Below, one piece after another: positions 40,892 to 60,280 of a stretch of 60,280 bases of DNA. How positions within the stretch are numbered: the stretch's first letter is position 1; each line of letters begins with the position of its first letter. A model generated the notes under the pieces. That model was not told the DNA's origin. It ran no database searches and was given only the letters and a program-made list of their open reading frames with translations. This stretch comes from Lentisphaerales bacterium. GTDB taxonomy: Bacteria > Verrucomicrobiota > Kiritimatiellia > JAUXFM01. Both the position numbers and the translations under genes were made by a program. Location of the stretch: the NCBI GenBank assembly GCA_030622955.1, contig JAUXFM010000004.1:1-60280 (forward strand), given 5' to 3'.

Positions 40892-40892
40892 T

Positions 40893-41333
40893 CTATTCCT
40901 TTTTTTCAACCCTTACGTAAACCGACTGGCAGTACCGCAGATCAGGCTGCTCCTTGCGCCACACCGTCAGGTTTATCTCGAGCAGGTCACCCGACCCATC
41001 CGCCAGTTCAGCCACCTGTGCCACTTCCTGCTTCCACCGGAAGTTACGCCCCGCGCATTCGGCGCCACCCTTACCGTCAACAGGAATGAAAGTTTCGTCC
41101 CGCTGCATCTCCTGTTCGAGTTCCGTGAATTTGCTGGAAATCAATTCCGTGGCGCACATCCGATCCTTTGTGCGATCGAGCGCAGATAACGATCTCTGGA
41201 AGCAGGTCAGAACGGCAACGATCCCGACCGATAGAATTGCAATGGTGATCAGGACCTCAACGAGGGTGAACCCGACGGCATGAGAACCTGGGTTCTGCCG
41301 ATCTACATGGAGCCTGGATTGAGCGTCAGCCAT
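40893..41333 (-). CDS. GspI-like minor pseudopilin
   Basis: 146-residue pseudopilin. The prepilin motif HAVGFTLVEVLITIAILSVGIVAV (G-F cleavage, E at +5) is near residue 21 and gives a 20-residue leader, longer than usual but common in such operons. The remainder is a small alpha/beta pilin body. The length and place between GspG and GspJ fit GspI. It would need a prepilin peptidase, which is not encoded in the window. Confidence 0.82.
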   Translation of the reverse strand: MADAQSRLHVDRQNPGSHAVGFTLVEVLITIAILSVGIVAVLTCFQRSLSALDRTKDRMCATELISSKFTELEQEMQRDETFIPVDGKGGAECAGRNFRWKQEVAQVAELADGSGDLLEINLTVWRKEQPDLRYCQSVYVRVEKKE

Positions 41334-41352: not shown

Positions 41353-41757
41353 CTACTTTCTTACGTCGTCCTCGTTGCCGTCCAGCCCGTCAGGACCAAG
41401 TGACCATATCTGGATACCTGCGCCATTGGGACTCGCTTCATTCTTATAATGGTATTCATTGCCCCATGGATCTTCCAGTTTGTCCAGGTAGGGCCCTTTC
41501 CAGTCCGTCGCCGTGGCGGGCTTCTTGAGCAGCGCCTTCAGTCCCTGCTGCGTGGTGGGATATGCGTTATTGTCGAGACGGTAGAGTTTGAGCACAGTTT
41601 CGATGTTCTTCATGTCGCCTTTGGTGATCTCTTTCAGTGCCTCCTCCTGGCGCCCGATGAGATTGGGCACTATCATGCCGGCCAATGCGGCTATGATAAT
41701 TACAACTATCATGAGCTCTATCAGGGTGAAGCCGCCTCTCGCTCCTTCAGATTTCAT
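41353..41757 (-). CDS. gspG: Major pseudopilin GspG
   Basis: Major pseudopilin of about 134 residues. Prepilin motif RGGFTLIELMIVVIIIAALAGM, then the GspG-specific C-terminal half: NAYPTTQQGLKALLKKP, GPYLDKLEDPWGNEYHYKN and SLGPDGLDGNEDD, where the acidic loop binds calcium in known GspG. These identify T2SS GspG rather than a type IV pilin. The ATG at 41757 follows GAGGGGGACGAG; the ORF track start 28 codons upstream is not preferred because it runs through the intergenic region. Confidence 0.92.
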   Translation of the reverse strand: MKSEGARGGFTLIELMIVVIIIAALAGMIVPNLIGRQEEALKEITKGDMKNIETVLKLYRLDNNAYPTTQQGLKALLKKPATATDWKGPYLDKLEDPWGNEYHYKNEASPNGAGIQIWSLGPDGLDGNEDDVRK

Positions 41758-41795
41758 ACTCGTCCCCCTCGTCGCAACGACGCTGAACAAATTTC

Positions 41796-42611
41796 TTATT
41801 GTTTCCTCTTGGCGGGCGCCGAAAGAACATGTGCCTTCCACGCTTCCTCCAGCGCTACTATATTACGCACAGATTGTGGATAGGTAAATCTCAAAGCATC
41901 ATCCAATTTCCCTCCTGAGCGTAGCGAACGGCACAGCTTCCCGAACTTCTCTGACCCATGCTGCTCTATCAGATACCCCACAAGGCTTATTGCCTGGGCA
42001 TAGAAATCGGCAGGATTCTCGCTCTTTCGAAGCTCCTGCGGAGTCATATTGCCCAGCTCCGACACCGACATGAGCTTGCCTTTCTTTGCCAGGGTTCTTG
42101 CATGTTCAATGCGTATACTGCGGTTCCCCTTCTCTTCCCATTGTGCTATTCCCTCATCCAGCCACAGTGGCACCTCGCCCTTGAAGCCCAGGAAATCTCT
42201 CAGTATCAGGTGTGTCAGCTCATGCGGCAGGACGGTGTCCAGAAACGTCATGCTGGTGGCGTAGCTGTCTATCTGCTTCATGGCGTAGTTCGCCCTACCA
42301 CGCGACCATCCAGGAGCGCCAGTTGCCTTCATATACGCAGCATGGTTTTCGTGCAAATAGATTTTCGCCCTGTTCTCCCACAGCCAGAAGTTGTCATGTC
42401 TATTGTGGCCCAAATCTTCAGCGATCTGCCGATAGTATTTCTCGGCACGGGAAGCTATGCTTTCGGCAAGCTTCTTCTCGCCCTTGTAATGGACAATGAA
42501 ATGCTTCCCTTTGATCTCCTGCCACTTCTCTGCATCCTCTTCGGCAAGGGAATGCTGCGGAAGGAGAGCAGTGAGAATCACGAGCAGGCCGGCGAGGAGT
42601 TGAGATCTCAT
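41796..42611 (-). CDS. Exported peptidase MA-like (gluzincin) metalloprotease
   Basis: Exported protein of about 271 residues from the ATG at 42611, which follows GAGGCACTCT; the longer ORF adds 14 residues before the signal. The signal peptide is MRSQLLAGLLVILTALLPQHSLAEED. A zinc peptidase site follows: PHELTHLILRDFLGFKGEVPLWLDEGIAQWEE, the HExxH helix plus a downstream glutamate of gluzincins. The family is often called peptidase MA-like. It lies inside the secretion operon between GspF and GspG, an unusual partner, and could process secreted or envelope proteins. Confidence 0.85.
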   Translation of the reverse strand: MRSQLLAGLLVILTALLPQHSLAEEDAEKWQEIKGKHFIVHYKGEKKLAESIASRAEKYYRQIAEDLGHNRHDNFWLWENRAKIYLHENHAAYMKATGAPGWSRGRANYAMKQIDSYATSMTFLDTVLPHELTHLILRDFLGFKGEVPLWLDEGIAQWEEKGNRSIRIEHARTLAKKGKLMSVSELGNMTPQELRKSENPADFYAQAISLVGYLIEQHGSEKFGKLCRSLRSGGKLDDALRFTYPQSVRNIVALEEAWKAHVLSAPAKRKQ

Positions 42612-42844
42612 AGAGTGCCTCAATTCAAGTCGATAGAGGTGACATCTTTTCATAACCTGCTAACTGATAACCAATAACGGCTGTCCGGTTGATCGGACCG
42701 CAATGGCAACAGATTTCAGATGCGCGGAACCTGCACTGATTGCTGGTCACCGATTGCTGTCGCCCATCTGCCACCGTTCCCCAACAACTCAACCGGCGTC
42801 CCTCGACCTGTCCTACATTGCTTTAGCACAAATGGCCAGCAACA
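42612..42844. other. Gap in the secretion operon
   Basis: About 230 bp between the GspF and peptidase genes. It contains a small hairpin, GTCCG-gttgat-CGGAC (42683-42698), and a sequence CGACCTGTCCTACATTGCTT (near 42803) that resembles one at 46068. No gene is visible. Confidence 0.4.
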
Positions 42845-44050
42845 CTACCCAATCGTCTTCCCGATCTCAAAGATGGGGAGCAGCATTGCAAAGACTATCA
42901 GGCCGACAACGGCGCCGATGATGAGAATGAGCAGTGGCTCTATCAGGGTTGTAACAGTTCTCGTCTGCTGATCTACTTCCTGGTCATAGAACTCGGCCAC
43001 CTCGGCCAACACTTCTTCCAGTCCGCCGGTTTCTTCACCGACCGCTATCATGTTGGACAGGAAGACCGGAAAGTGTTTTGCATGTTTCATGCCATCAGCA
43101 ATACGGGCGCCGCGATGCACAACACCCACTCTGACCTCCTCTATTTCCTGCTTCAATATACTGTTACGCATGGTCTCAGAGCTCAGTGCGAGGGCCCGAT
43201 CAATCGTAATGCCGCTTTCGATCAACAGTGATAATGTTCGCGCAAAACGTGCGATATCTGCATTCCGGGAGAATCCTCTGAGCACCGGCATGCTCAGTTG
43301 GATCGCATCCCACATTGTTCTGCCTGCACCTCCAGAAATCATTCGCTTCAGCATCAGAATAAAAAGCATGACTCCAATGACCAGCCAGTGCCAGCTCCCT
43401 GAAATGATCTTGCTCGCGCCAAATAGGATTGCGGTGGGAAGTGGCAACTCCTGGCCTTTGAACAGTGGCATGATCCGAGGCATGAAGAACGCCACCATGA
43501 CGAATACGGTAGCAATCCCTACGATGAGTACGAGTGTAGGATAAGTGAGCGCCGACTGAACTTTGCGACGCAGGACTTCTTCCTTCTCACGCGCTTCAGC
43601 AAGCCGGCGCAGGATCTTGTCAAGAATACCTGCTGATTCTCCCGATTTGACCATGCTGACATAAAGCCCCGGGAAAAGCCGGGGGTATTTCTTGAGTGCT
43701 TCCGAAAGCATCCCGCCATCACGGATCGTATTTCCAAGATCCGTTACCACCCGCAGAAGCTTCTTGTTCTCGGTCTGTTCGCCTATGGTCACAAGCGCCC
43801 TGAGAATTGGGACGCCGGCACGCAGCAGGCTCGCGAGCTGGCGGGTAAAGATATTGATGTCCCTCGCGCGAATTCTTGCACTGATGAACTCGTGAGAGCT
43901 GCGCTCATCGATCGCGTTTTCCGTGACCGATATGGGGCTCTGCCCGCGCCTGTCGATCTCGGCGAGAACCGCAGCCCTGTTATCGGCAATGATCTCACCT
44001 TCGATGGTGTTATCAGGCCCATCTTTTGCTTTGTATGTGAATGTAGGCAT
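42845..44050 (-). CDS. gspF: Type II secretion inner-membrane protein GspF
   Basis: 401 residues, the normal length. Two T2SSF domains, each with a conserved helical core (FTRQLASLLRAGVPILRALVTIGEQ near 70, and FARTLSLLIESGITIDRALALSSE near 275), and three TM segments. The N-terminus MPTFTYKAKDG is typical. GspF couples the ATPase GspE to pseudopilus assembly in the inner membrane. It follows GspE with a 253-bp gap holding simple repeats. Confidence 0.93.
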   Translation of the reverse strand: MPTFTYKAKDGPDNTIEGEIIADNRAAVLAEIDRRGQSPISVTENAIDERSSHEFISARIRARDINIFTRQLASLLRAGVPILRALVTIGEQTENKKLLRVVTDLGNTIRDGGMLSEALKKYPRLFPGLYVSMVKSGESAGILDKILRRLAEAREKEEVLRRKVQSALTYPTLVLIVGIATVFVMVAFFMPRIMPLFKGQELPLPTAILFGASKIISGSWHWLVIGVMLFILMLKRMISGGAGRTMWDAIQLSMPVLRGFSRNADIARFARTLSLLIESGITIDRALALSSETMRNSILKQEIEEVRVGVVHRGARIADGMKHAKHFPVFLSNMIAVGEETGGLEEVLAEVAEFYDQEVDQQTRTVTTLIEPLLILIIGAVVGLIVFAMLLPIFEIGKTIG

Positions 44051-44303: not shown

Positions 44304-45932
44304 TTAGATGCTTGTTACACGGATGACTTCTTCAAGAGTTGTAATTCCACGGGCAGCTTTTTCCTGTCCATCCTGGGCCAGGCTCACCATGCCCAGCGCC
44401 ATGGCCTTCTCACGCAACACTGTGGAAGAAGCCCTGTCGAGGATGAGTTCCTGGATCTCCGGCTTGAGTGGCAGGAATTCGCAGACGGCAATGCGTCCGC
44501 TGTATCCGGTTTGTTTGCAGGCTTTGCATCCCGTACCGCGATACCGGGTTGCCCCATCAATTTCATAGCTTTCCTTGCACTTCGTACAGATCGTTTTGAC
44601 AAGGCGTTGTGCGGCGAACGCACGCACGGTTGAGGTGATGAGATAGGGATCAATGCCCATATCAATGAGCCGTACAGCGCCACTCGCCGCGTCGTTCGTA
44701 TGTAGGGTGCTGAGAACAAGATGCCCCGTCATGGCTGTCTGGATCGCAATTTCGGCCGTCTCCCTGTCACGTACTTCACCCACCATCATGATGTCAGGGT
44801 CATGTCGAAGCATGCTTCGTAATGCCGTTGCGAAGGTAAGTCCTATCTTCGGATTGATCTGCGTTTGCGTTATTCCTTTGAGCTCGTACTCAACAGGATC
44901 CTCGATAGTTATTATCTTCCTGCCAGGTTGATTGAGCTGCCTGAGGCAGGCATAAAGTGTCGTGCTTTTACCGCTCCCCGTTGGACCCGTGACAAATATC
45001 AGCCCATGTGGCTGATTGATCAATTCACCGAGTGCAGCCCGATGAGCAGGAGAGAGTCCCAGTTCTTCCAAATTGAAGAGCATAGTGGTCGGCAGGATCC
45101 TGATCACAACGTTCTCGCCATGCAGGGCCGGGACAACTGATATTCTGAGATCGTAGTTTTTTCCACCAACAGTGACCCTGGACCTTCCATCCTGCGGGAT
45201 TCTGCGTTCTACGATGTTGAGACGAGCCATGAGCTTGATGCGTGAAATTATTGCCGGGTACAGGACCCTTATGTTCGATGCCACGTGTGCCGGGTACAGC
45301 ACACCGTCAATCCGGCGCCGCACGTCCACGGAATCACGACCGGCCTCGAAGTGGATATCCGTTGCCCGCTCATCAATGGCTTCCTGCAGAAGCTGGTTGA
45401 CCAGGCTGACAACCGAGGCGTCATCTGCCATCTTCGCCAGGTCATGCGATTCGGCGACGGGTTCCGCCTCTTCATGCGAAGATTCCTGCAGAATCTTCTC
45501 AACGGTATCGGCCCCTATTCCGTAGGAGCGTCTGATGGCATCGAGTATGTCTGACCTACAGGCAAGCACCCGCTCCACCTGGTAGCCAAGATTCGTCTGG
45601 ATATCCTCGACCGGCGACATGTCCAGGGGATCCGACAAGGCTATTGTCAGGACAGGTGCCTGCAACCGGACAGGCATGATCAAGTAGTGTGATGCGAACT
45701 TGGCCGACACAGACCTGATCGCCGCATCATCAATGACCAGCTCGCCCAGGGCCACAAAGTTCAGGCCATGTTGATCCGCAAGCAACCTCAGGAGCGGTTC
45801 TTCTTCAACAAAGCCGTTCTCCACCAGGACCAGGGGCAAAGACCTGTAGGTCTGCCGAGATATCGTCAGGGCTTTCTCAAGATCTTTCTTGGAAAGCATG
45901 CCCTGCTTGACCAGGTTGGCTTCGAGTTTCAT
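44304..45932 (-). CDS. gspE: Type II secretion/pilus assembly ATPase GspE
   Basis: 542-residue assembly ATPase. N-terminal MshEN-type domain (about 1-150), then the core: Walker A GPTGSGKSTTLYA, Asp box ITIEDPVEYEL, Walker B MMVGEVRDRETAEIA and His box STLHTND. A four-cysteine zinc motif (CTKCKESYEI...GTGCKACKQTGY) follows, as in GspE and PilB. It powers pseudopilus extension from the cytoplasm. It is the first gene of this operon; about 180 bp separate its start from the stop of atpD-like beta upstream, so it may have its own promoter. Confidence 0.93.
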   Translation of the reverse strand: MKLEANLVKQGMLSKKDLEKALTISRQTYRSLPLVLVENGFVEEEPLLRLLADQHGLNFVALGELVIDDAAIRSVSAKFASHYLIMPVRLQAPVLTIALSDPLDMSPVEDIQTNLGYQVERVLACRSDILDAIRRSYGIGADTVEKILQESSHEEAEPVAESHDLAKMADDASVVSLVNQLLQEAIDERATDIHFEAGRDSVDVRRRIDGVLYPAHVASNIRVLYPAIISRIKLMARLNIVERRIPQDGRSRVTVGGKNYDLRISVVPALHGENVVIRILPTTMLFNLEELGLSPAHRAALGELINQPHGLIFVTGPTGSGKSTTLYACLRQLNQPGRKIITIEDPVEYELKGITQTQINPKIGLTFATALRSMLRHDPDIMMVGEVRDRETAEIAIQTAMTGHLVLSTLHTNDAASGAVRLIDMGIDPYLITSTVRAFAAQRLVKTICTKCKESYEIDGATRYRGTGCKACKQTGYSGRIAVCEFLPLKPEIQELILDRASSTVLREKAMALGMVSLAQDGQEKAARGITTLEEVIRVTSI

Positions 45933-46114: not shown

Positions 46115-47542
<1,428 letters not shown>

Positions 47543-47557
47543 TCACATGAAACTTCT

Positions 47558-48505
47558 CTAAGCTGCTTTACCGGCCTCCTTGGCCAATGCCTGCTTCTTC
47601 TTCTTGGCCTTGAGTTTCTTCTTTTCCTTGATGTTCTTGGCCGCGAAACATTCGCGCATGCCCTTGTCGATCTGCTCGTGAACAGCCTTGAATGCCTGGT
47701 GCTGCACCTTCTTGAATGTCTTTTCAACTGCCTGTTGACTGCCTTCAAGATGCATTGCCCTGGCAGAGAATTCCGCCAGCTTACTGTCCTCGAACACTTC
47801 GTAGAGTTTGGATGTGACCCATACTCCGGCAAGATACTCAAGCATATCGGAGAAAGATGATTCAATAATGACGTTCCGCGCTTCTGCCATCATCCCCCCG
47901 CTTTTGCCCCGACCGGACAGCTCGCTCTCGACGTCCTTGTCGAAGAGTTCTGCACAAGGCAGGATGTTGACCACCTCGATTGTCTGCGAAGAGAATGACA
48001 ACGCCTTCGGGTAGGCAACGGCAACCTTGCCCATCCTCCCGGCAAGGACCTCATCAACAATATAATCCTTCACTTCCACCGCCTGCTCATAAATGGTCTC
48101 CGGTGCAATGCCGGGAAAGAATTTGTGCGCCCTGCCCTGATCTCCAAACGTGCTGTTGCCCTTGTCGCCTATTACCAGGAGTGCTGTCTTGTCATCCGGC
48201 AGGTTTCCCTGGCAGTCCATTGCTGCACGGATCACGCCCTGGTTCAGTCCGCCCATGAACCCGGAATCTGATGTAACCACTACGATACCCATGACATCAG
48301 ACACCTCTCTTACGAAAGGATTTTCAACATCGATCAGGTTGACAACCCGGAAGAATCCCGAGAAAGCATCCATAAAAGCGTCAAACCGCTCCTTCTGTTT
48401 TTCCAGGACGTGATACTGCGAGCTGGCCACATTTTTGAGTGTCTCTACGAGGCTCAGCAGGTCACCGTTAAACTGCAGCTCTTTTCTCAATTCCGTTAAC
48501 TGCAT
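47558..48505 (-). CDS. F-type ATPase gamma subunit, divergent
   Basis: Central-stalk subunit of 315 residues, slightly long. The N-terminal helix (LTELRKELQFNGDLLSLVETLKNVASSQYHVLEK) and the C-terminal helix (FSARAMHLEGSQQAVEKTFKKVQHQAF) follow the gamma pattern. The highly conserved C-terminal RQAxITxELxEI is replaced by HQAFKAVHEQIDKGM. After it comes a 30-residue lysine-rich tail (KEKKKLKAKKKKQA), not usual in gamma. GGGAG precedes the ATG. Upstream are a GC palindrome and the heptamer array. Confidence 0.88.
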   Translation of the reverse strand: MQLTELRKELQFNGDLLSLVETLKNVASSQYHVLEKQKERFDAFMDAFSGFFRVVNLIDVENPFVREVSDVMGIVVVTSDSGFMGGLNQGVIRAAMDCQGNLPDDKTALLVIGDKGNSTFGDQGRAHKFFPGIAPETIYEQAVEVKDYIVDEVLAGRMGKVAVAYPKALSFSSQTIEVVNILPCAELFDKDVESELSGRGKSGGMMAEARNVIIESSFSDMLEYLAGVWVTSKLYEVFEDSKLAEFSARAMHLEGSQQAVEKTFKKVQHQAFKAVHEQIDKGMRECFAAKNIKEKKKLKAKKKKQALAKEAGKAA

Positions 48506-48732: not shown

Positions 48733-49494
48733 TCACGCATGCGCAGTCTTCTTAACCTCTGCCGATGCTTCCTTCAGCCTGTTGGACAGGCTTCCGTCAA
48801 TCTCAAGGCTGCCAAGCTTGAAGATCATGCCTCCGAGCAGTTCTTCATCGATCTTCTCCTCAACTTTTATCTCGGCGCCAAACTTGTTCTTCAGCAGTTC
48901 TTCGAGTCTCTGCTTCTGCTCGGGGACAATCGCATGACTTGTTGTAAATTGCACATCGTCGGTATCAACCGTAATGCTAGCCGCATCAAGATCGTCCAGT
49001 GCGTCGAGCAACTCACCGATGAAATGCTTGTTGAGTTCTGCATTCATTTCCTCGCTGAACACAAGCTTGAAGACCTCAGTTCCATAATCTACGGCTTTTT
49101 CTTCCATGTCCTGCGCGATCTGGGTTCTGAGTCTTTCCTCATTTTTGCGGGCCGTTGCCATTATCTTCTCACTTTCCTTCCCGGCTTCGGCGAGCATCTG
49201 CTCTCTGGTCCTGGCGAGTTCCTCTTCGGATTTCTCTCTTTGCTCCTGGAGTTTTTCTTCCGCTTCCTTCTGCTTTGCTTCGAATTCCTTCTTGTGTCCT
49301 TCGATCTCCTGTCGGATAGACTGTTCTTTCTTCTTCACCTCGGCTTCCACCTGCTTCAACCTGTTGATCGCATTCATTGTGTCGCCGAGCAGCATCTTCT
49401 TGAGAAAGAAAACAATGCCAACCAGGACAGTCAGATGGAGCAGCACGAGTGGTATAAGGATGCGCAACATCCCTGATAGGTTTCCTAGGTCCAT
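48733..49494 (-). CDS. F-type ATPase b-delta fusion subunit
   Basis: 253-residue stator protein that joins b and delta. Residues 11-31 are a TM helix, 40-135 a long charged coiled coil as in subunit b. Residues about 170-250 match the delta C-terminal domain: VQFTTSHAIVPEQKQRLEELL followed by ELLGGMIFKLGSLEIDGSLSNRL, with the GG and DGS landmarks at 221 and 233. The delta N-terminal helical bundle that binds alpha is short or absent. Separate b and delta are usual; fusions are known in some other lineages (e.g. mycobacteria). The ATG lies 60 bp after subunit c. Confidence 0.88.
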   Translation of the reverse strand: MDLGNLSGMLRILIPLVLLHLTVLVGIVFFLKKMLLGDTMNAINRLKQVEAEVKKKEQSIRQEIEGHKKEFEAKQKEAEEKLQEQREKSEEELARTREQMLAEAGKESEKIMATARKNEERLRTQIAQDMEEKAVDYGTEVFKLVFSEEMNAELNKHFIGELLDALDDLDAASITVDTDDVQFTTSHAIVPEQKQRLEELLKNKFGAEIKVEEKIDEELLGGMIFKLGSLEIDGSLSNRLKEASAEVKKTAHA

Positions 49495-49554: not shown

Positions 49555-49770
49555 CTATCCTCTGCCAAACAGCTGAAAAAGAATCAGGAGCGCTATAACT
49601 GCGATCGCCTCCGCAAAGATCAGGGAAATTATCATCGCCTGCAGTATCTTTGGTGCGGCCGACGGGTTCCTGCCCAGCGCCCTGATGCTGGCATATCCGA
49701 TGGCCGCAATGACGGCTGACGGTCCGATAATCGTCAGGAACATCACGAGAAATATGACGAAATTTTCCAA
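49555..49770 (-). CDS. F-type ATPase subunit c
   Basis: Ring subunit, 71 residues, one hairpin of two TM helices. The polar loop is GRNPSAA (R34-N35-P36), and the carboxylate for ion binding is E54 in LIFAEAIAVIALL. The proline of helix one is kept, but the polar Na+-ligand positions (Q32 and S66 in Ilyobacter-type rings) are isoleucine and alanine here, which favours protons. The start is a TTG after GGACAGGAGCG; the next ATG would remove part of helix one. The reading frame is clear and the c-ring thus should assemble. Confidence 0.9.
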   Translation of the reverse strand: MENFVIFLVMFLTIIGPSAVIAAIGYASIRALGRNPSAAPKILQAMIISLIFAEAIAVIALLILFQLFGRG

Positions 49771-49794: not shown

Positions 49795-50022
49795 TCATTC
49801 TTCGACCAGGATCATGCATTCATCCTTGTCAAACTTGATCATTCCCTTCTTGATCGGAATGGTTTCCTTCCAATCAACTACAACATCGCCCTTCTTGAGC
49901 AGACTGACTATCGGTGCGTGGTAATCCTGCAGTTCGAACTCAGCAAGGTCGCCCGGCAAAAATACGCTCTTGGCCTCCCCCTCAAAAATCACGTGTTTGG
50001 GACTGAGTATCGTCACCTTCAT
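49795..50022 (-). CDS. F-type ATPase epsilon subunit, short
   Basis: 75-residue epsilon with only the N-terminal beta-sandwich: MKVTILSPKHVIFEGEAKSVFLPGDLAEFELQDYHAPIVSLLKKGDV is classic. The C-terminal two-helix domain, which in many bacteria inhibits ATP hydrolysis, is missing; the protein is about 55-60 residues shorter than usual. An enzyme lacking this brake could hydrolyse ATP freely. It lies 5 bp after alpha-2 and before c, an unusual place. Confidence 0.9.
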   Translation of the reverse strand: MKVTILSPKHVIFEGEAKSVFLPGDLAEFELQDYHAPIVSLLKKGDVVVDWKETIPIKKGMIKFDKDECMILVEE

Positions 50023-50027
50023 ATACT

Positions 50028-51560
50028 TTACGCTTCAGTAGCCTGCTCCCCAGCATCGTCACCAGCACCTTCGAGGAGCACGCCAGCCGTACTGTCAAAA
50101 TATGCCTCGATCAGTTTCCGCATTGCGTTCTCGATTTCGGGCGTCACATCGTCGGCCGACTCGATGGCAGAGAGCAGCGCCTGGTCATGTCCCCTGGCAA
50201 AATCAAATATGTCCTTACAGAATATCTTTCTCTCTGCTCCAGAGCGCGCCTGAAGCATGCCTGAAGATACTGCATAGAGAAGAATGACCTCCTCTTCGAG
50301 CGAGACTGGGTTCGCTTCGCCCTGTTGAAAGATGCTGCGTATGACCTCGCCCTTTTTCACTGCCCGATCGGCTTCTTCGGAAAGGCCGGACGAGAGCTTG
50401 CTCAGTTTAACGATCTCATTATAGCGTGCGTAGTCAGCACGCAGGTCCTTGCCAAGCGTCCTCATGATGGTGGGCTGCGCTTTACCTCCAACAATGGAAA
50501 TAGAGACCGGCACATCGATGGCCGGGCGGAATCCTTCACCGAAGATGCTACTGCTCAGGCATATCTGACCGTCACACATGGAAGAAAGGTTTGAGGGGAT
50601 ATAGCCGGTAAGATCATTCTGCAGTGTTTCAGCAATACCGAGGAACGTGATAGACCCGTCGCCGTGGTCCTTGTTGAATTTGCCCGCCCTCTCCATGAGC
50701 TGGGTCTGGACATAGAAGATATCACCCGGATATGCCTCGCGGCCGGGCGGTCGCTCCAGCAGCAGCGAAAGCTGCCTGTATGCCCAGGCATGTTTTGTCA
50801 GGTCATCGAACACCACCAGTACATCGTGACCTTTCCGTGCGAAGTAATCTGCAATCGATGCGGCTGCGAATGGCACAATGTACTGCTCACCGACCGGCGA
50901 GTTATCCGTGGCCGCGATGATAGTGGTATAGTCGAATGTGCCCTTCTTCTGGAACAGGCCGGCAATTTTCTCGAGGCCCGAAACCGACTTGCCGAGACAG
51001 CAGTAAATACAGATAACATCACGATCCTTCTGATTGAGAATTGCATCCACCGCTATGGCTGTCTTGCCGGTCATGCGGTCACCCAGGATCAACTGTCGCT
51101 GGCCCTTGGCCAGGGGAATGAGCATGTCTACAATCTTGGTGCCAGTTGGCATGAACTGATCGATAGTTGCGCGATCTGTAATTGGCGGGGAGTCCCTGAA
51201 GACTGCCACATGCTCATCAGCTTCTACAGGTTCCTTGCCGTCAATCGGGTTCCCTAGCGCACCGACCATTCTCCCGATAAGGCCATCACCCACGGGAATT
51301 GTGAATGGTTCACTGACTCCAATGACTTCCTTGCCCATCTTGAGTTTGCTGGGATCGCCAAGTGCCAGTGCCAGGACTTCGTCTTCGTCATAGCCCATGA
51401 TGATTCCCTTGACCCCGTCACCCATATCGAGAATTTGCCCGTTCAGGCAGGTGGGAAGCCCTTCAATGCGAACGATGATCTCTTTGATATCCTTGATCAC
51501 GCCCTTTTCCTGGACCTTGATCTTAAACAGCGGTATCGGAGAACTGGCTGAGCTGCTCAT
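50028..51560 (-). CDS. F-type ATPase alpha-like subunit 2 (no arginine finger)
   Basis: 510 residues, alpha-type. Walker A GDRMTGKT at 160-167, FDDLTKHAWAYRQLSLLLERPPGREAYPGDIFY in the centre. The arginine finger that in alpha completes the beta catalytic site (VSRVGG motif) is replaced: PVSISIVGG, with I356 in place of Arg. The N-terminus begins near the beta-barrel and lacks the extra segment that binds delta in canonical alpha, although it has a short serine-rich head. It overlaps alpha-1 by 38 bp. It is clearly a paralogue of alpha-1, not a frameshift product. Confidence 0.9.
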   Translation of the reverse strand: MSSSASSPIPLFKIKVQEKGVIKDIKEIIVRIEGLPTCLNGQILDMGDGVKGIIMGYDEDEVLALALGDPSKLKMGKEVIGVSEPFTIPVGDGLIGRMVGALGNPIDGKEPVEADEHVAVFRDSPPITDRATIDQFMPTGTKIVDMLIPLAKGQRQLILGDRMTGKTAIAVDAILNQKDRDVICIYCCLGKSVSGLEKIAGLFQKKGTFDYTTIIAATDNSPVGEQYIVPFAAASIADYFARKGHDVLVVFDDLTKHAWAYRQLSLLLERPPGREAYPGDIFYVQTQLMERAGKFNKDHGDGSITFLGIAETLQNDLTGYIPSNLSSMCDGQICLSSSIFGEGFRPAIDVPVSISIVGGKAQPTIMRTLGKDLRADYARYNEIVKLSKLSSGLSEEADRAVKKGEVIRSIFQQGEANPVSLEEEVILLYAVSSGMLQARSGAERKIFCKDIFDFARGHDQALLSAIESADDVTPEIENAMRKLIEAYFDSTAGVLLEGAGDDAGEQATEA

Positions 51561-52986
51561 CTAGGGCCTCCTTAATTTCCTCCGTCATCGTTTTTGTATC
51601 TATCAGAGATTGAACAATCTCAGGGCGGCGGTTCTTGACCTGTGCAACGAACGCACTCAATTTACGACTGACATCACGCGGCGCGGTTCCCTGCAGAAAA
51701 CCTTTCTCAAGAGCATGGAGGATCATGACCTGTTCCTGGAGCGGAACAGGTTCGTTCTCATTCTGCTTGAGCAATTCTTCGAGGCATCTCCCCTTCTGAA
51801 GACGTTCCTCAACGGCCTCGGACACACCGGCCTTGATCCTGGTCATCTTCTCCAGTTCCTTGTGTCGGATATAGTCCATCTTCAGCATGCTGGACTGTTT
51901 TTTCATAGCAGGCCACTGCACCTTGCTACCGATACGAGAGACCGACAGGCCCATATCAATGGCGGGCTTGAAACCCTCGCCGAACAGGGAGGCATTGAGG
52001 TATATCTGGCCGTCGGTCATCGAAATGATGTTTGACGGTATGTAGCCGGCAAAGTCACCCTCGAGTGTTTCGACGATCGGAAGATGTGTCATGCTGCCCC
52101 CGCCACGCTCTTCTTTCATCTTGCCGGCACGTTCGACAAGCTGTGAATGAATGTAGAAAATGTCGCCGGGATAGGCGTCGCGACCCGGCGCGCGCTCGAG
52201 CAAGAGTGATATCTGGCGATATGCCCATGCATGCTTGGTGAAGTCATCGAAGACCAGCAGGACATCCATGTTTTTTTCATGCGTGAAGTACTCTCCCACG
52301 CTCGCAGCCACGTAGGGCGAAAGATACTGCTGGCCCATGGGGTCCGCTGCAGTCGCAGCGACTATGATGCCGTACTCCCATATGTTATGAGTATTAAAAA
52401 CCTCGATGACCTTGTTCAGGGCCGCTTCTGATTTGCCTATACAGGAATAGATGCAGATCACGCCCTCATTCTTCTGGTTGATCATCGCATCGAGACCAAC
52501 CGACGTCTTGCCGGTCATGCGGTCGCCAAGAATGAGCATCCTCTGACCTTTACCCACAGGTAGCGTCATATCGACCATCTTCACACCTGTCTGCAGGACG
52601 TCGTCAAGCGGTACCCGCTCAAGAACAGTGGGCGCAATATTGAAGATCGGCCAGCGTCTTGTTTCTTTAATGGGGCCATTGCCATCAATTGGTTCGCCGA
52701 GCGCATTGATAATCCTTCCCGTAAAGGCATCTCCGACAGGGACCTGGAACTCGTCGATTGTGGTAGTAACCTTGTCCCCTGGCTTGATGGCGCCCGTCTG
52801 CTTCACGAGCAGTACAAGAACGTAATCTGCATCGAATCCCACAATGACGCCACGTGATGATTCCCCGATAGTGACCATCTGGCCATTCATGCAGTTGGTC
52901 AGCCCGATCACGTTGACAACATCCTGCCTGATCTCTGCGACAGAGCCATGTTCCTTGAGTTGCAGGAGATTTATCTTGAACGCCAT
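51523..52986 (-). CDS. F-type ATPase alpha-like subunit 1
   Basis: 487 residues. Walker A GDRMTGKT (154-161; canonical GDRQTGKT), DVLLVFDDFTKHAWAYRQIS (241-260) and the arginine finger in GLSVSRIGSK (R351) are present. The first about 20 residues of canonical alpha, which contact delta, are absent; the protein starts almost at the beta-barrel. The usual glutamine in GQKRS is lysine (GKSEAAL). It is the more canonical of two alphas in this operon and should pair with beta to form competent sites. It follows the membrane-anchored protein by 4 bp. Confidence 0.92.
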   Translation of the reverse strand: MAFKINLLQLKEHGSVAEIRQDVVNVIGLTNCMNGQMVTIGESSRGVIVGFDADYVLVLLVKQTGAIKPGDKVTTTIDEFQVPVGDAFTGRIINALGEPIDGNGPIKETRRWPIFNIAPTVLERVPLDDVLQTGVKMVDMTLPVGKGQRMLILGDRMTGKTSVGLDAMINQKNEGVICIYSCIGKSEAALNKVIEVFNTHNIWEYGIIVAATAADPMGQQYLSPYVAASVGEYFTHEKNMDVLLVFDDFTKHAWAYRQISLLLERAPGRDAYPGDIFYIHSQLVERAGKMKEERGGGSMTHLPIVETLEGDFAGYIPSNIISMTDGQIYLNASLFGEGFKPAIDMGLSVSRIGSKVQWPAMKKQSSMLKMDYIRHKELEKMTRIKAGVSEAVEERLQKGRCLEELLKQNENEPVPLQEQVMILHALEKGFLQGTAPRDVSRKLSAFVAQVKNRRPEIVQSLIDTKTMTEEIKEALDEQLSQFSDTAV

Positions 52987-52990
52987 ACTA

Positions 52991-54379
52991 TTATTCCTGA
53001 CCGCTGTCTCCGAGTTTCTCTGACTTGCTCTTGCCGAACCACCTTAGGAAGAATAATAGACTGACCAAGCCCAGGAATCCAAGAACGATATAGATGATTA
53101 TCCACGTTGTTCTGGGATCAGGCGCTTTGACGCTCAGCATTGGTGTCGTCCATTTGGGCTCTTTCTTTCTCCTGAGCACCTCTTCAAGCCTATCGAGTTT
53201 GCCCTTGATCTTTCCCAGCTTACGCGTTTGAACGCGGAAGAAATCGACGTATTCCGGGCCCAGTGTTTCCGGCTTCGTCTCCGCTGTGATCTGGTTCAGC
53301 TCTTCGATTATGCCAGCAACGTGCAACTGCAGATCTTCGTGCCCCTCTTCGGCGCTCACGACGGCCAGAAGGTTAGTAGCGATGGAAGTAAACTCAATTA
53401 TGTAATCGCCATTGATATCCCATTTGTCCTTTATCAGGACAGGGAACTCCTTCTTCTCCCTGGCGGCCAGCTCCAGGTCATTGATGTAAACGTAGGTTCG
53501 CTTACGTCTGGCATCGTATCCCACTTTCAGCATGTCCGGATCGACAACATCCTCAACGCCGATCTCCTCGGGAAGATCTCTTCGCACGGAAATGACCCTG
53601 TTGGTGAGTGGCGAAGTGTTCTCGACTTCGATCTTCATAACGGCGGATTTGTAGCCGCCGCTTGGCACCTTGCGCTCATCGCGTTCCCATTCCACTTCCG
53701 AGACAATGGGATCGATTGGCGCAACATCTATTCCCTCCATGATCAGGAAGTTTTCAAGTTGTCCGAGATTCTTGACCGCCTTCCCGTAGATCTTGCGGGT
53801 GGTCGAGTATGCCCTGATATGCTGCAGGGGCGGCACCATGCCGATGGCATTCTCTTCCTGTATTACCAGGAGCTGGTTCAGATCCATAACGACCTTGTCC
53901 CTGATATTGGTGGCCGTGCCCATGAATTCGCTCTCCTTCTTCTTGAGCTTCGTCACGGCTTCCGTGGCCCTTGTCTTCAGGGTCTCAATCTTGTCGGCAG
54001 GGAAAGTCCATACGTCCTCGAGCACAACTTCGAGATTCTTGACGCTCTGTGCGGAATTGGTACCCAGCTCTACTTCGCCCCGGACAAAATAGCGGTCTTC
54101 CTTAATGTTATAGCCTATGTTAAGACCGGCGCTGTCAGTGACATTTTCAGGGCGGATACCGACAGGCAGGTCCCGTTTGACAGACACTTTCTGCTCTTTG
54201 GCGTTGGGCCTGTTCACCACCCGAATCCGCATTATGATCTCCGCCGCCCGGGCAGGCGGGACATACCCCACAGCGAGTGCCAGGACAACGAGCAATGAGA
54301 TAAACATACCGCGCTCTATCGCAGGATTCCTGCCCGATGTACGGGTACAGAACAATAGTAGTGGTCGTTTGCCTGTCAT
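52991..54379 (-). CDS. Duplicated-domain exported protein with C-terminal TM, ATPase-linked
   Basis: 462 residues, no recognised family. A signal peptide (MFISLLVVLALAVGYVPPARA, from internal Met 25; an ATG at 54307 may be the real start) is followed by two copies of one unit. Each has a beta-rich head with RDLPxxI...D.V.D...LxxGY and a helical or coiled-coil tail (RDKVVMDLNQLLVIQEEN; HVAGIIEELNQITAET). One TM lies at about 424-447 with a 15-residue basic tail inside. It lies 4 bp from alpha-1, so it is co-transcribed with the ATPase. It is not subunit a: only one internal TM. Confidence 0.8.
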   Translation of the reverse strand: MTGKRPLLLFCTRTSGRNPAIERGMFISLLVVLALAVGYVPPARAAEIIMRIRVVNRPNAKEQKVSVKRDLPVGIRPENVTDSAGLNIGYNIKEDRYFVRGEVELGTNSAQSVKNLEVVLEDVWTFPADKIETLKTRATEAVTKLKKKESEFMGTATNIRDKVVMDLNQLLVIQEENAIGMVPPLQHIRAYSTTRKIYGKAVKNLGQLENFLIMEGIDVAPIDPIVSEVEWERDERKVPSGGYKSAVMKIEVENTSPLTNRVISVRRDLPEEIGVEDVVDPDMLKVGYDARRKRTYVYINDLELAAREKKEFPVLIKDKWDINGDYIIEFTSIATNLLAVVSAEEGHEDLQLHVAGIIEELNQITAETKPETLGPEYVDFFRVQTRKLGKIKGKLDRLEEVLRRKKEPKWTTPMLSVKAPDPRTTWIIIYIVLGFLGLVSLLFFLRWFGKSKSEKLGDSGQE

Positions 54380-54445: not shown

Positions 54446-57400
54446 CTACTCTGCGGCTTCCAGCCAGTCCTGGATGACCGGCTGGTTGATCTGTTCGTCC
54501 ATCAACATGCGCATGAGCGACATGTCTGCTTTCACACCTGCGAGAGCATTATAAAGATCTGCAAGGGATTCCTCATTAAACGAACCCTTGCCGGGCGGCG
54601 CGGTCGCAGGTTTCCCGAGAAGGGGATCTGCACCTTCCTCCTTGGCCCACTTGTTGATATTCGCAATTGCATCCTTGAGGCCATCAACAAGAGCATCGTT
54701 GTTGATACCCGTTGAGATAGACGCTACGCTTCTCTGCATCTCCTCGACCCGCTTCGTAAGCGCCTTGATATGAGTGGCCGCCTCTTCAAACTCGCCATCG
54801 CCCATGGAGGTTTTAACGGCCTGGACACCGCTGGCAGCGGAACCTGCCAGTGTCTTGGCAGAGCTGGCAGCTTTCTTCGCTCCGAAAGCGTCGTCACCCA
54901 CCCCGTCCAGTGAATTGTCAACATGATGAAGCACACCGAAGACGGTTTCCGACTCCCAAGTATCGGCAGGGTTGCCTATATTCTGGCTTATGACTGTCAA
55001 GGAGTTCGAAGTGGTCTCCTGCATATCATGCATCTTCTGCATGGAGCTGGATGCTGAAGCATGAAGGGTTTTCAGTTCTGTCAGACCGGAATCCACTGTG
55101 GTCATTCCTGATTCTATCGTGGCAAGGCTGGTCTCCACAGCCGTCAGATCCGTCCCCGCGAGGTTCGTGATGGCGGCCTGGAGCTGATCGACAACATTGC
55201 TCATATTGGCCCAGTCGACGCCTGCGAGCACGGCGAGGTTGGCTGCCATATTGGTCACCTCGGTGTAGATGGTACTGACCTGGTTCGACACTGCATTAAC
55301 CGCGCTGAGAATTGTTGCGATGTTGGTAACGCTGGATTCTATGGTACTTATTTGCGACGCGAGCTGCTGCAAGCTGGCCGTTGTGATCTCAATCACCATG
55401 CGGTCACGCGGCGATGTAGCTACAGCTGGATCGTCGACACATTCGATAGTGTAGTCGCCCACACCCCAGGTACATGCGATCTCGTAGTTGTAGAGTCCTC
55501 CATTGATCGTGGCCATGCTATTACTGTGCACCATGGTCCCACTGCTGTCATAAGCCGTTATCGAAGGCGTCAGGCCAGTTCCCGACTTGTAGAGGATCAG
55601 GTTGGTGCTGTTCAGCATCACCGTCGTGGGTCTCGTCAGGATACGTGCTCCACGCCATTCGACCTGGGTCTCTATGCGGGCGACTATTGAACTTATGGCC
55701 GTGATCGATGGTCCGATAGAAGCGATATTGGTCACAACGCCATCGAGCGTGGCGAATGCATTGGTATAGGTTTTCACAATCGAAACAAGGTTCGTGACCT
55801 CGCTCTCCACTCGACCGACGCTGCTGGTGAGATTTGTCAGCAGGCTTGTGGCGCCTGCCCTGAACGTACCCTGCTGAGTGGCGAGAACATCAAGGTTTGT
55901 TCTCACCCGGAAGACATTGCTCTGTATTGCCGATTCGACGTTCGCAATTTGTGTCTGCAGCGTCAGCAGTTCGGCAGAAGCTGCAGCCAGCCTGACAGTA
56001 TAAGAGACAGCCGAAGAATAGCTGGCACCCGAGAAATTCACGTCCACCTTGGCAAAATAAGTCTCACCAGGGGTCAGCGTTGCCGTGACATTGTCCCAGT
56101 ACAACCGGAAGATGCCGCTTGCCAGTGGCGCGCTGCTGTTGAGCGTATAGATCTCTGTCCCGGCAGTGTCATAGAAATGGATCGCACAACTGTCCGGCGT
56201 AGCCAGGACATCACCGCCCCTTTCGAGCCATGCATGGATGGTAAGGTTTGTGCTGACATCGTTGTAGACAATATCCGCCATGACATGGTAATCCGGCTCA
56301 ATCTCTGATTTGGCCATGGCCACATCGATCGTCCGTGACGGCCTGGATATCCAGTCGAACACGACCTTGTCATGAAAGAACTCCCTGTACCACACGGTAT
56401 CGAAATGGCCATACGGATACATATGATTCATTGGCGATGTCATGCTCGACCTGGTCCATCCTGAACTGTCAGTTACGGCCAGTTGTGTAAGGTTGCTCCC
56501 CGTGTTCTGGTCATAGACATGCCAGGCAATGGTAAAGTACCGGATACTTAACATCCCCTCGATATCGTCGAACGGACCGTGGAAATCATATGCATAGTTG
56601 TTCGTATAGTTCCTGTCCTGGATTCTCAGCCAGACGGTATCGCTCTGAACGTCAGGGACAGTCATGACATACTGGTTCGGTTTCTGCATGCCACCCAGAC
56701 AGGGCACAGAACTGGTATTCACCTGGGTCCAGTTACCCGGCGCTCGCGTGGGATCGATTGAGTAATAGAAATCAACATTGCTGACGTTGCCCCAGCCGTA
56801 CCAGGTCACAAGCGTCGGTTCCAGCGCATAGAACACCGATCCATTGGTCGGGGTCAGGATTTGGAATTTGGGCGACAGATAGAAGACCTGTGACGTATCC
56901 TGGATACCGGCAGTAGCAGTGTTGGTGATGTATATCTTGGCCGCTCCGAGCTGGGATGGATCGGAGGGGATCCAGTTCAATGTGCGGATGTTGTTCGACG
57001 ATTGGATTGCGCCAACAATAGGCTGGTATGTCAGAAAATCATTCGTCGAATATACCACGGCCCAACCTTCGCCCATGCTGCCACCCATGCTCCAGCTCAC
57101 AACATTGGTCTCACTCACCCGCCAGAATTCGCCTGCGGCAGGGGAAAGGATCTTAATCAGCGGATTTGCAACAATCTCGATGGCTGCAGAATCACCGAAG
57201 TAGCCGCCCGTATCCGTGACCCTCACGATCATACTTGTCCCGACCGCATTACTCGGGACAACCCACCAGTAGAGCGAACCCGCAACATTATTCGTACTCC
57301 AGACGGGCACGCCATTGGAGAACACCTCGATGGTGTTGGTGCCATCAGTACCGACCGATGTCCATTGGATCAAATTCGTCTCACCGACAGCCCAGATATC

Positions 57401-60280
57401 GCTGCCGATCGGTCTGGTGACCTTGACACCACCGACGGTGAAGACAGCTGACTCTGCAAATCGCGGCGCACCAGCAACAGTGTAAGCAATACGGATCTGT
57501 GCGTTCGTTGAAGGAGTTCTGGTAGCCTCGACGATCCAATTGGTAGCATTCAGGCCGTCACTGATACCAATGTTCTGTGCGATCGGATTGGCGGTATCCC
57601 AGCTCCCGCCGCCGTCAGACGAGTAGTGAATATCACCGAGGATATCGACCGCTGCCGCAACAAACCTGATCTGTTGCGTGCTGCCAAGTTCCCAGTTATC
57701 GCCCGTTGTCGGATTGGCGATCTTGACTCCGCGCAGCGTAAATGGCTTGGAAAGTGTCTCATACCCAACGTCGACAGGATAACCCGGCGAATTCGTAATG
57801 TGAATCTTCAGCAGGGCATTGGTTGTCGGGGGCAGGTTCACGTCAACGCTCCATGCATTGGATACAATCTGGCCTACAGGAATATCTATGGCCGTAAAGC
57901 TCGGCATTTCGTATGTGGCGCCACCATTCGTTGAGATATAGAACCTGGCGCCCGCATTGATTCCGATACCAGCCTCAATCCACCATATGGTGTAAGCCTG
58001 CCCGATATCCACGGCAGACGCAGTGGTCGGATCCGTGATCTTGATGCCACGCGCAACGAATGTGCCGGAATAATTCGCGTATATGCCGGATGCCGGCAGA
58101 CCTGCGGTATACCTAATCCTTGCGTTCTCGGATGGATCGAGATCAGCAGTCATGCCCGCCGTCCAGTTGTAACTGTTAATGCCCGGCGCAGTTTCGTTGT
58201 TGAAATCGGTCAGAATATTGACCCAGTTCCCCGTTCCATTGGGGGAATAATCAACGTCCATGGTATTGTCCAGGGTCCCTGCCGATACCCACGACAGGCC
58301 TGTAACCACCGGTGTGTTCACCGTATAGATGGCATTATTGGTCGGTTTCAAGCCAAGCAAGCCGACCACGGTAAAGTCATAATCGGAGATATCGTACATG
58401 TTCGAGACCGCCGGATCCGTGGCGATAATCCTGAGCCGGCCTTCCACTGTCGGGTACGTCGGCGTATAAAGATTTGTCCTGGCAGCAAGCGGGAAATTGG
58501 ACGAGGTCATATCTATCCAGGGCCCGTTCGTGCCCCGGTTTGAGATCTGGACCACGCAGCTCTCCCCCGGTCCTGCGGCAGCATAGTTCCAGGAACTCGT
58601 CTGGATTGTACTCATGATCCATTTTAGCTCACCAAAAGTACCATTCGGATAATTGACCTTCACGCCCGCGATATTGAATGACTCTGAGACGCCATTCAGA
58701 ACACCTGCCGTCTTCTGTATCTTGATCTTCGCATTGATCGAGGGGGCTGACGGTATATCCGACCAGACAAAAAAGTTGGTTACAGCAATGTTGTTCGTGT
58801 TGGGATAACCCACAACAGGAGTGAGCCTGTTCTGTGTCAGGAAATCGTTTGTTGACCAGAAGATATCAACCAATGGACCTGCGCCACCTGCAGTCCAGGC
58901 AATGACATTGGTCGTCCCGACCTGCCACGCTGCGTTGTTGCTGGGCGCCTTGATGTCAATATCAGCAATCGTAAAGAGATCCGATATACCCCAGGCTCGA
59001 CTATTGGTGCCGGACGTGAGTTTTATGATGCAGGTCGGGCTAGGGTTACTCGCAGCTATCGTCCAGATATGACTGTTGGCGCCATTGGTATTCGGCCAAT
59101 TCGTAAACGTAGACCAATTCGTACCACCATCGAGGGAAAGCTCAAATGTTGCCGAGCTGTTATCGCCTGCCGACTCCCACACAATGTTGGTAATGGTGCG
59201 CCTGCCCCATTCATCTCCGCCACGGGGGCTCGTGATCCGCATACCTGCGAGCACAAAATCCCTGTCAGATGAGTCGCCCTTGAAGTTAGGCGTTGTAGCG
59301 AGACTGATCCTCACACGTGCCTGGGTCGAGAGAAGCGAAGGATCCGTCTTGGGGATCGCCCATATGTTGACATTGTTGGTGGAGTTCACGACATTCGCAA
59401 TGTTCGTGAAGATCACGTTGTAATTGTTCCCGCCATCACTGCTGAAATGGATATCTACGGCGGCAATGCCGGGTGGCGACGCCCACACGATGTAATTCGT
59501 CTCGCCGTTGTACCAGACCTCGCCACCGTTCGGCGAAAGAAGATGCAACCTGTCACGCAACTGGAAATCGCTATCTGAGACATCCCAGATCGTGCTCGGG
59601 TTATCGGAATCCTCGATCTTGATCCGCATATTATTCCTGACGCCCAGCACCCAGGGAGTAGCCCAGGGATAATTGCTGTTGTTCGGGACACCTGCTGCGA
59701 TGGCCGTCCAGTTGGTCCCGCTATTCACGGAATAATAGAGGTCCACATTTGCGGCGGTGATCCCGTCCGTTACCCAGCGGATGTTGTTTGTCACGCCTGC
59801 AAGCCACGCATCATCACCAACTTCTGTGCCGTCCGGTTCGGTCAGGACAATCCTGCCGCCAGCGCCAATTGTCCTGATCTCATCAACCCCGACCTGGTGC
59901 GCTCCATCTGAATCCAGCCAGGTCTTTACCCTGAAGTTGATTCCCGTTTCGTTATATAGCTCCTCATAAAAAGAGTCGATATTCGCGTTGATCACGTTTT
60001 GTGACGAGGTATTCAGCCCATATCCCCACCCCATCGAATTCGTCCATTCAGAACCGCTCCAGTAGTACCAGGTCGGTGCAAGCCCGCTATCGCCCGAGAT
60101 CTGGTACTGCACTGCCGTATTTGTTTCCGCGTTAATGATATGCTGGAAGGATATGAGGCGGCCGGAGAAGTACTTGGTAAAAGTTTGTTTGGGCTCACCG
60201 GTCGGCTGGTCACTCGGATAGCTCGATGCTTCAACGCTCACGCCCTGCAGGACCGGCGCATACTTATGATGCTCGGTCTC
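54446..60280 (-). CDS. Giant Ig-like repeat and coiled-coil protein, 5' end outside window
   Basis: At least 1,944 residues. The track places the start at a GTG (60241), but the frame stays open to the window edge (ETEHHKYAPVLQG...), so the true N-terminus and any signal peptide lie outside. From about residue 125 there are eleven roughly 95-115-residue beta-sandwich repeats with the pattern I..P..G..W..G.TN.I.W, similar to FlgD-like/Ig-like modules. Then a mixed domain (about 1270-1500), coiled coil, one more beta domain (near 1625) and a long coiled coil to the C-terminus. No TM is seen. The stop is 66 bp before the next ATPase-linked gene. Confidence 0.8.
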   Translation of the reverse strand, partial: ETEHHKYAPVLQGVSVEASSYPSDQPTGEPKQTFTKYFSGRLISFQHIINAETNTAVQYQISGDSGLAPTWYYWSGSEWTNSMGWGYGLNTSSQNVINANIDSFYEELYNETGINFRVKTWLDSDGAHQVGVDEIRTIGAGGRIVLTEPDGTEVGDDAWLAGVTNNIRWVTDGITAANVDLYYSVNSGTNWTAIAAGVPNNSNYPWATPWVLGVRNNMRIKIEDSDNPSTIWDVSDSDFQLRDRLHLLSPNGGEVWYNGETNYIVWASPPGIAAVDIHFSSDGGNNYNVIFTNIANVVNSTNNVNIWAIPKTDPSLLSTQARVRISLATTPNFKGDSSDRDFVLAGMRITSPRGGDEWGRRTITNIVWESAGDNSSATFELSLDGGTNWSTFTNWPNTNGANSHIWTIAASNPSPTCIIKLTSGTNSRAWGISDLFTIADIDIKAPSNNAAWQVGTTNVIAWTAGGAGPLVDIFWSTNDFLTQNRLTPVVGYPNTNNIAVTNFFVWSDIPSAPSINAKIKIQKTAGVLNGVSESFNIAGVKVNYPNGTFGELKWIMSTIQTSSWNYAAAGPGESCVVQISNRGTNGPWIDMTSSNFPLAARTNLYTPTYPTVEGRLRIIATDPAVSNMYDISDYDFTVVGLLGLKPTNNAIYTVNTPVVTGLSWVSAGTLDNTMDVDYSPNGTGNWVNILTDFNNETAPGINSYNWTAGMTADLDPSENARIRYTAGLPASGIYANYSGTFVARGIKITDPTTASAVDIGQAYTIWWIEAGIGINAGARFYISTNGGATYEMPSFTAIDIPVGQIVSNAWSVDVNLPPTTNALLKIHITNSPGYPVDVGYETLSKPFTLRGVKIANPTTGDNWELGSTQQIRFVAAAVDILGDIHYSSDGGGSWDTANPIAQNIGISDGLNATNWIVEATRTPSTNAQIRIAYTVAGAPRFAESAVFTVGGVKVTRPIGSDIWAVGETNLIQWTSVGTDGTNTIEVFSNGVPVWSTNNVAGSLYWWVVPSNAVGTSMIVRVTDTGGYFGDSAAIEIVANPLIKILSPAAGEFWRVSETNVVSWSMGGSMGEGWAVVYSTNDFLTYQPIVGAIQSSNNIRTLNWIPSDPSQLGAAKIYITNTATAGIQDTSQVFYLSPKFQILTPTNGSVFYALEPTLVTWYGWGNVSNVDFYYSIDPTRAPGNWTQVNTSSVPCLGGMQKPNQYVMTVPDVQSDTVWLRIQDRNYTNNYAYDFHGPFDDIEGMLSIRYFTIAWHVYDQNTGSNLTQLAVTDSSGWTRSSMTSPMNHMYPYGHFDTVWYREFFHDKVVFDWISRPSRTIDVAMAKSEIEPDYHVMADIVYNDVSTNLTIHAWLERGGDVLATPDSCAIHFYDTAGTEIYTLNSSAPLASGIFRLYWDNVTATLTPGETYFAKVDVNFSGASYSSAVSYTVRLAAASAELLTLQTQIANVESAIQSNVFRVRTNLDVLATQQGTFRAGATSLLTNLTSSVGRVESEVTNLVSIVKTYTNAFATLDGVVTNIASIGPSITAISSIVARIETQVEWRGARILTRPTTVMLNSTNLILYKSGTGLTPSITAYDSSGTMVHSNSMATINGGLYNYEIACTWGVGDYTIECVDDPAVATSPRDRMVIEITTASLQQLASQISTIESSVTNIATILSAVNAVSNQVSTIYTEVTNMAANLAVLAGVDWANMSNVVDQLQAAITNLAGTDLTAVETSLATIESGMTTVDSGLTELKTLHASASSSMQKMHDMQETTSNSLTVISQNIGNPADTWESETVFGVLHHVDNSLDGVGDDAFGAKKAASSAKTLAGSAASGVQAVKTSMGDGEFEEAATHIKALTKRVEEMQRSVASISTGINNDALVDGLKDAIANINKWAKEEGADPLLGKPATAPPGKGSFNEESLADLYNALAGVKADMSLMRMLMDEQINQPVIQDWLEAAE

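Follow-up and report, generated by a model that had tools for sequence, protein, structure and literature searches.

The window analysed here, the entire contig C45 of 60,280 bases from a draft assembly (200 contigs, 2.65 Mb), ends in a reading frame for a giant protein. The question raised by this locus is whether the giant stands on its own in the cell envelope or works together with the genes that follow it. Comparison of the giant, its neighbours and their relatives in other genomes suggests that a repurposed ATP-synthase engine may drive this very long secreted protein.

Architecture of the giant protein

The frame at 54446-60280 (minus strand) encodes 1,944 aa and is free of stop codons up to the contig end; since the window is the whole contig, the giant is truncated by the end of the contig and not by a stop. 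A sequence-only reading of this DNA had proposed that the protein is cut by the window edge and that the start at 60241 is not the true one. Both proposals were borne out, the GTG at 60241 being only the first internal start codon. Named records with a related ATPase gene, the neighbour of the giant, assign the group to Kiritimatiellota/Lentisphaerota. Relatives of the giant are present in at least 7 further families of its class; where complete, their frames of about 3,250-4,200 aa show that the frame continues upstream. An N-terminal profile of these relatives, 1440 positions long, was searched against the own assembly; its alignment to the window protein begins at the start of that protein and only at profile position 1310, which indicates that about 1,310 N-terminal residues (the signal peptide and LamG domains) are missing and lie in an assembly gap. 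The relatives' profile (five rows) gave no other match to this missing part elsewhere in the assembly, nor did the N-terminal part of one relative when used as query against the same genome.

Full-length relatives start with a signal-peptide-like segment followed by four Laminin_G_3 (lectin-like) domains, and their Ig-like repeats match the Kre9_KNH or Reelin type in Pfam-type domain searches. The combination expected of a giant adhesin, a signal peptide with lectin and Ig domains, is found in these full-length relatives and is not readable in the window protein, which itself lacks the N-terminus. The signal peptide that had been suggested as a check is therefore seen in the relatives, and it is these, rather than the window genome, that contradict the alternative of a cytosolic protein with a nearby upstream stop and no signal peptide.

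The retained part of the giant carries an array of eleven Ig-like repeats of about 100 aa, from residue 144 to about 1240 (56561-59851, minus strand), which begin at residues 144, 245, 347, 441, 540, 642, 746, 852, 952, 1042 and 1139 and are thus spaced 90-106 aa apart. In an AlphaFold2 model of residues 745-1944, repeats 7-11 and further beta domains were obtained with a pLDDT of mostly 75-90, and Foldseek with this model matched tandem Ig proteins (contactin, titin, DSCAM) at E-values down to 6e-19. By repeat starts, model and structure matches, the earlier count of eleven beta-sandwich repeats was right, and so was their fold. Long coiled coils had been placed behind the repeats; in the helical C-terminal region (54449-55978, minus strand) AlphaFold2 does predict long helices, with low confidence, at about residues 1435-1543 and 1638-1931, broken up by one well-modelled beta domain at about residues 1553-1633 (55382-55624). 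Pfam matches of the giant to baculovirus and NPV coiled-coil families were far below the cut-off and were discounted.

Among the Foldseek matches, at rank 19 (E 5e-15), was a fragment of the grappling-hook protein GhpA of Aureispira (PDB 9flw), another giant bacterial protein with a tandem Ig-like fold. The likeness, known from structure comparison, is one of fold only. No rotary ATPase is, to our knowledge, linked to GhpA.

The ATPase and secretion genes next to the giant

Downstream of the giant, after a gap of 66 bases in which no terminator-like site was found, lies a gene designated tm462 (52991-54379, minus strand). According to TM prediction and AlphaFold2 (pLDDT 88.7), its product has a signal-peptide-like N-terminus, two tandem copies of a unit made of a beta-sandwich and a three-helix bundle, and a C-terminal TM helix, so that a large part of it would be extracytoplasmic. 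It matched no Pfam family above the cut-off, and Foldseek found no structure in the PDB at E <= 0.001. A 3,677-aa frame in L093/L119, which looked like a fusion of the giant and tm462, crosses a scaffold N block and was rejected as an artefact.

tm462 is followed on the minus strand by alpha1, alpha2, epsilon, c, b/delta, gamma and beta of an F-type ATPase, and then by type II secretion genes. The catalytic core of an F1 is present: in beta (46115-47509) the active-site residues are intact, and the Walker Lys and the catalytic Glu and Arg are invariant in 69/69 sequences. Alpha1 (51523-52986) has an intact Walker A motif and arginine finger, the latter kept in all 84 alpha1 sequences (84/84), whereas alpha2 (50028-51560) has Ile at the arginine-finger site in 28/28 sequences (the window copy and 27 relatives). 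Beta sites in contact with alpha2 should consequently be weak or inactive, which would make the head asymmetric. In an alpha tree, built without mycoplasma sequences, alpha2 forms a single clade (support 100/100) joined to the alpha1 of Kiritimatiellota (98/72), as expected for a duplication on that line; two Kiritimatiellota loci, L033 and L036, show no alpha2. The epsilon subunit (49795-50022) is short, at 75 aa, and is without the C-terminal helical domain, which in typical F-ATPases inhibits hydrolysis. The c subunit (49555-49770) has two TM helices and its carboxylate, the peripheral stalk is represented by a b/delta fusion (48733-49494; PF00430 and PF00213), and gamma is encoded at 47558-48505 (PF00231). 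The window genome has two further ATP-synt_ab genes on G000:C198 and one on G000:C101.

The genes that follow, likewise on the minus strand, encode a GspE-type secretion ATPase (44304-45932), GspF (42845-44050), an MA-superfamily peptidase that is conserved in the cluster (41796-42653), the major pseudopilin GspG (41353-41841; 128.7 bits, NCBIfam cut-off 88.85), the minor pseudopilin GspI (40893-41333; 47.2 bits, cut-off 44.35), GspJ-like (40283-40909) and GspK-like (39253-40272) pseudopilins, a PilM/GspL-like protein (37818-39272) and a GspM-like protein (37237-37821). The pseudopilins mark the cluster as type II secretion, and GspE, GspF, GspG, GspI and GspK-type genes are all present, with only GspG and GspI scoring above the cut-off; the GspJ-like, PilM/GspL-like and GspM-like proteins likewise score below theirs. 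Behind the Gsp genes, at 35935-37224 (minus strand), lies a gene for a 429-aa protein with one TM segment, a coiled coil and, by eye, MORN-like repeats.

About 80 loci from Kiritimatiellota, Omnitrophota and one record named Elusimicrobia are arranged, over the length that each contig covers, as giant, tm462, alpha, epsilon, c, b/delta, gamma, beta, GspE, GspF. In both phyla most loci continue behind the ATPase with GspE, GspF, GspG and other Gsp genes, and these neighbours allow a pure export role, with the rotary ATPase and the type II genes energising secretion or assembly of a giant that is itself a passive adhesin or coat. A very large cargo, made with the signal-peptide-like N-terminus seen in the relatives, could need such extra power. 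However, type II systems have an ATPase of their own, GspE, which is encoded in the window; we know of no type II system that uses an F-type ATPase; and tm462, with its large extracytoplasmic part, is encoded between the giant and the ATPase. An export machine of this kind therefore seems unlikely to us.

Exchangeable giants and the missing subunit a

The reading in which the ATPase drives the giant draws on how firmly the two are associated. In many Kiritimatiellota contigs tm462 and the ATPase genes come immediately after the giant. Among the first 57 genomes of the class, the sample used for this test, a giant was present in 10/10 genomes with tm462 and, as a weak match, in 1/47 without it (Fisher 2.5e-10, shared ancestry being ignored). 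The cluster was present in 41/288 sampled genomes of the class; being found in only about one seventh of them, it is accessory. A giant was detectable in 30/41 tm462-positive genomes (one very weak tm462 match included), and no giant relative was detectable in the other 11/41, several of which are incomplete. In G038 and G043 the giant and the ATPase cluster are both present without being adjacent. A conserved protein of 572-591 aa occupies the position of the giant, upstream of tm462, in the Kiritimatiellota loci L027, L031 and L034; by eye it appears unrelated to the giant. Locus L122 of G038 is arranged in the same manner, yet this genome keeps a giant elsewhere.

In Omnitrophota, nearly every locus whose contig extends upstream of tm462 has a different giant there. 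Its body consists of nearly uninterrupted 13-residue INW repeats, [GN][IV]NWxDLxxLSxA, over thousands of residues: the giants of L116, L117 and L118, all truncated at the N-terminal end, contain 296, 442 and 298 copies in 4,176, 6,079 and 4,257 aa, respectively. These repeat giants matched no credible Pfam family, and hits to Ntox33 and Lysostaphin_N were discounted as products of the 13-residue periodicity. The C-terminal ends of both kinds of giant do correspond. In the window the conserved tail (..LMDEQINQPVIQDWLEAAE) is encoded at 54449-54583 (minus strand), and in a profile alignment the last 120 aa of the two kinds aligned with their ends in register (hhalign probability 96%, E 1.4e-9). 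Coiled-coil C-termini can give false profile matches; neighbouring helical segments, used as comparison, gave probabilities of 0.3-0.7%. With tails that align and bodies that are unrelated, a common C-terminal tail carries exchangeable bodies.

These observations bear on the original interpretation of the giant as an envelope filament or adhesin. Its part on export and an adhesin-like build holds for the relatives, with their signal peptide, LamG domains and Ig-like stalk; the conserved ATPase and secretion cluster was missed, so that the adhesin reading, though reasonable on the domains, appears incomplete. The stronger form, a stand-alone adhesin or filament without a mechanical link to the ATPase, gains from these same domains and from the two genomes in which giant and cluster lie apart. 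Against it, the co-occurrence holds even where the genes are unlinked, and the Omnitrophota giants, with their unrelated bodies, have nothing in common with the Kiritimatiellota ones beyond the C-terminal tail and their place in the cluster. We think it improbable; an adhesin or filament acted on by an ATP-driven machine would fit the gene content better than a free-standing envelope filament.

Whether such a machine would be coupled to ions was judged from subunit a and the c-ring. Subunit a (PF00119) was absent from every cluster locus examined. In the window genome its sole match lies on contig C49, next to a canonical alpha/beta pair, and in the other genomes that have subunit a it sits on a different contig from tm462. 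PF00119 was unmatched in 13/47 cluster-positive genomes, and in family f24 (G038, G081, G110, G146 and G206) the cluster is present with no subunit a found genome-wide in 5/5 genomes, three of which are at least 92% complete. The c-ring carboxylate is kept in the window and in most relatives; 6/25 distinct Kiritimatiellota sequences and 2/52 from Omnitrophota (L094 being counted as Omnitrophota) have lost it. In these eight distinct c sequences (L022, L028, L033, L036, L038/L098, L100, L054 and L060), which fall on several separate branches of the alpha1 tree, the residue at this site is Met, Gln, Val or Ile. L060 also carries another c-like gene, in which Glu is retained. Some Omnitrophota loci, among them L056, L063 and L075, have a diverged second c-like gene behind c, so that the ring may be mixed.

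The missing subunit a and the loss of the carboxylate together argue that, in some lineages at least, ATP is hydrolysed without coupling to ions. A subunit a might be too diverged for detection, and a scheme in which ions have no role leaves the carboxylate kept in most c sequences without an explanation. That the cluster is an ordinary second ion pump or synthase, which takes its subunit a from the canonical F-type operon, with the giant merely as a neighbour, agrees with this carboxylate and with the subunit a encoded elsewhere in most cluster genomes, the window's included, but is very unlikely in view of family f24, the several lineages without the carboxylate, and a linkage and co-occurrence with giants that are conserved in two phyla.

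Comparison with known ATPases and a possible mechanism

Part of this ATPase has already been reported, in Omnitrophota. A non-respiratory F-type ATPase next to pilus-type genes was described there and called 'symbiotic' type 2/3, its alpha clustering with mycoplasma type 2/3 in a phylogeny, and a role in attachment to or motility on host cells was proposed (Seymour et al. 2023, PMC10066038). The Omnitrophota loci found here, with a second alpha beside pilus or secretion genes, fit the available portions of that account, by description rather than locus by locus; the window itself is from Kiritimatiellota. The neighbouring genes are given there as a type IVa pilus, whereas by score those in the window belong to type II secretion, GspG and GspI passing the cut-off. 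In those portions of the paper giant ORFs are a separate feature, and tm462, alpha2, the loss of subunit a and a Kiritimatiellota cluster are not mentioned. Our literature search, of incomplete coverage, found no published link of the giants to the ATPase, and no report of tm462, of a Kiritimatiellota branch with alpha2, of the loss of subunit a and carboxylate, or of one tail on two unrelated giant bodies.

Ordinary bacterial F1Fo/N-type synthases have alpha, beta, gamma, epsilon, c, b and delta subunits homologous to those of the cluster, and ordinary F1 structures are the best-scoring matches of cluster alpha1 and beta. The cluster differs from them in having no subunit a, a duplicated alpha without arginine finger, a truncated epsilon, in some cases a c without carboxylate, and a fixed linkage to tm462 and the giant.

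The F1-like X0 ATPases of mycoplasmas act on surface proteins (PMC12994834): M. mobile glides by means of type 2 (G1), and MIB-MIP function depends on type 3 (PMC3369863, PMC11864180, PMC12994834). As in the window, an extra F1-like ATPase would serve surface proteins rather than ATP synthesis, and the cluster includes a large protein with a signal peptide and C-terminal TM segments. However, the mycoplasma cluster has seven genes, for alpha, beta, gamma, an epsilon-like and three unrelated proteins, and contains a 12-TM protein and no b. The window cluster has c, b/delta and tm462 and no 12-TM or other multi-TM protein, and because of this different gene content we do not place it in mycoplasma type 2/3. 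The beta of M. mobile G1, moreover, scores far below ordinary F1 betas. The best reading may be that the window cluster is analogous to the gliding and MIB-MIP ATPases and built from different parts.

In our proposal the giant is secreted and serves as the working arm of a rotary machine that is driven by ATP and uncoupled from ions; the proposal is built on gene content and predicted structure, and we consider it evenly balanced between right and wrong. The C-terminal tail of the giant would stay by the inner membrane, probably held by tm462, and the Ig-like stalk and lectin-like N-terminal end would project outwards, probably aided by the type II secretion system encoded alongside. ATP hydrolysis by alpha1, alpha2 and beta in the cytoplasm would turn gamma, epsilon and the c-ring while the b/delta stalk holds; as there is no subunit a, this rotation is proposed to be uncoupled from ion flow. 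Torque or a conformational cycle may then be relayed through the c-ring and tm462 to the giant, which would be pulled, wound or reset so that the cell could attach, glide, or capture a surface or polymer. Contact between giant, tm462 and ATPase, the direction of energy flow, the site of the giant and any movement are parts of the scheme that we infer. More tentative, and less likely than not, is the proposal of a distinct rotary class: a channel-less F-type ATPase with an asymmetric alpha1/alpha2 head that would mechanically drive interchangeable giants through one conserved C-terminal coupling tail in two phyla.

If this is correct, two large phyla with mostly uncultured members would have converted rotary ATPases, otherwise ion-coupled energy converters, into machines that mechanically drive giant surface proteins, separately from the mycoplasma case. 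Many unexplained giant genes of Omnitrophota would gain a partner and a testable function. The role of an F1 without a channel would also become open to experiment, with family f24 and the lineages without the carboxylate as natural test cases.
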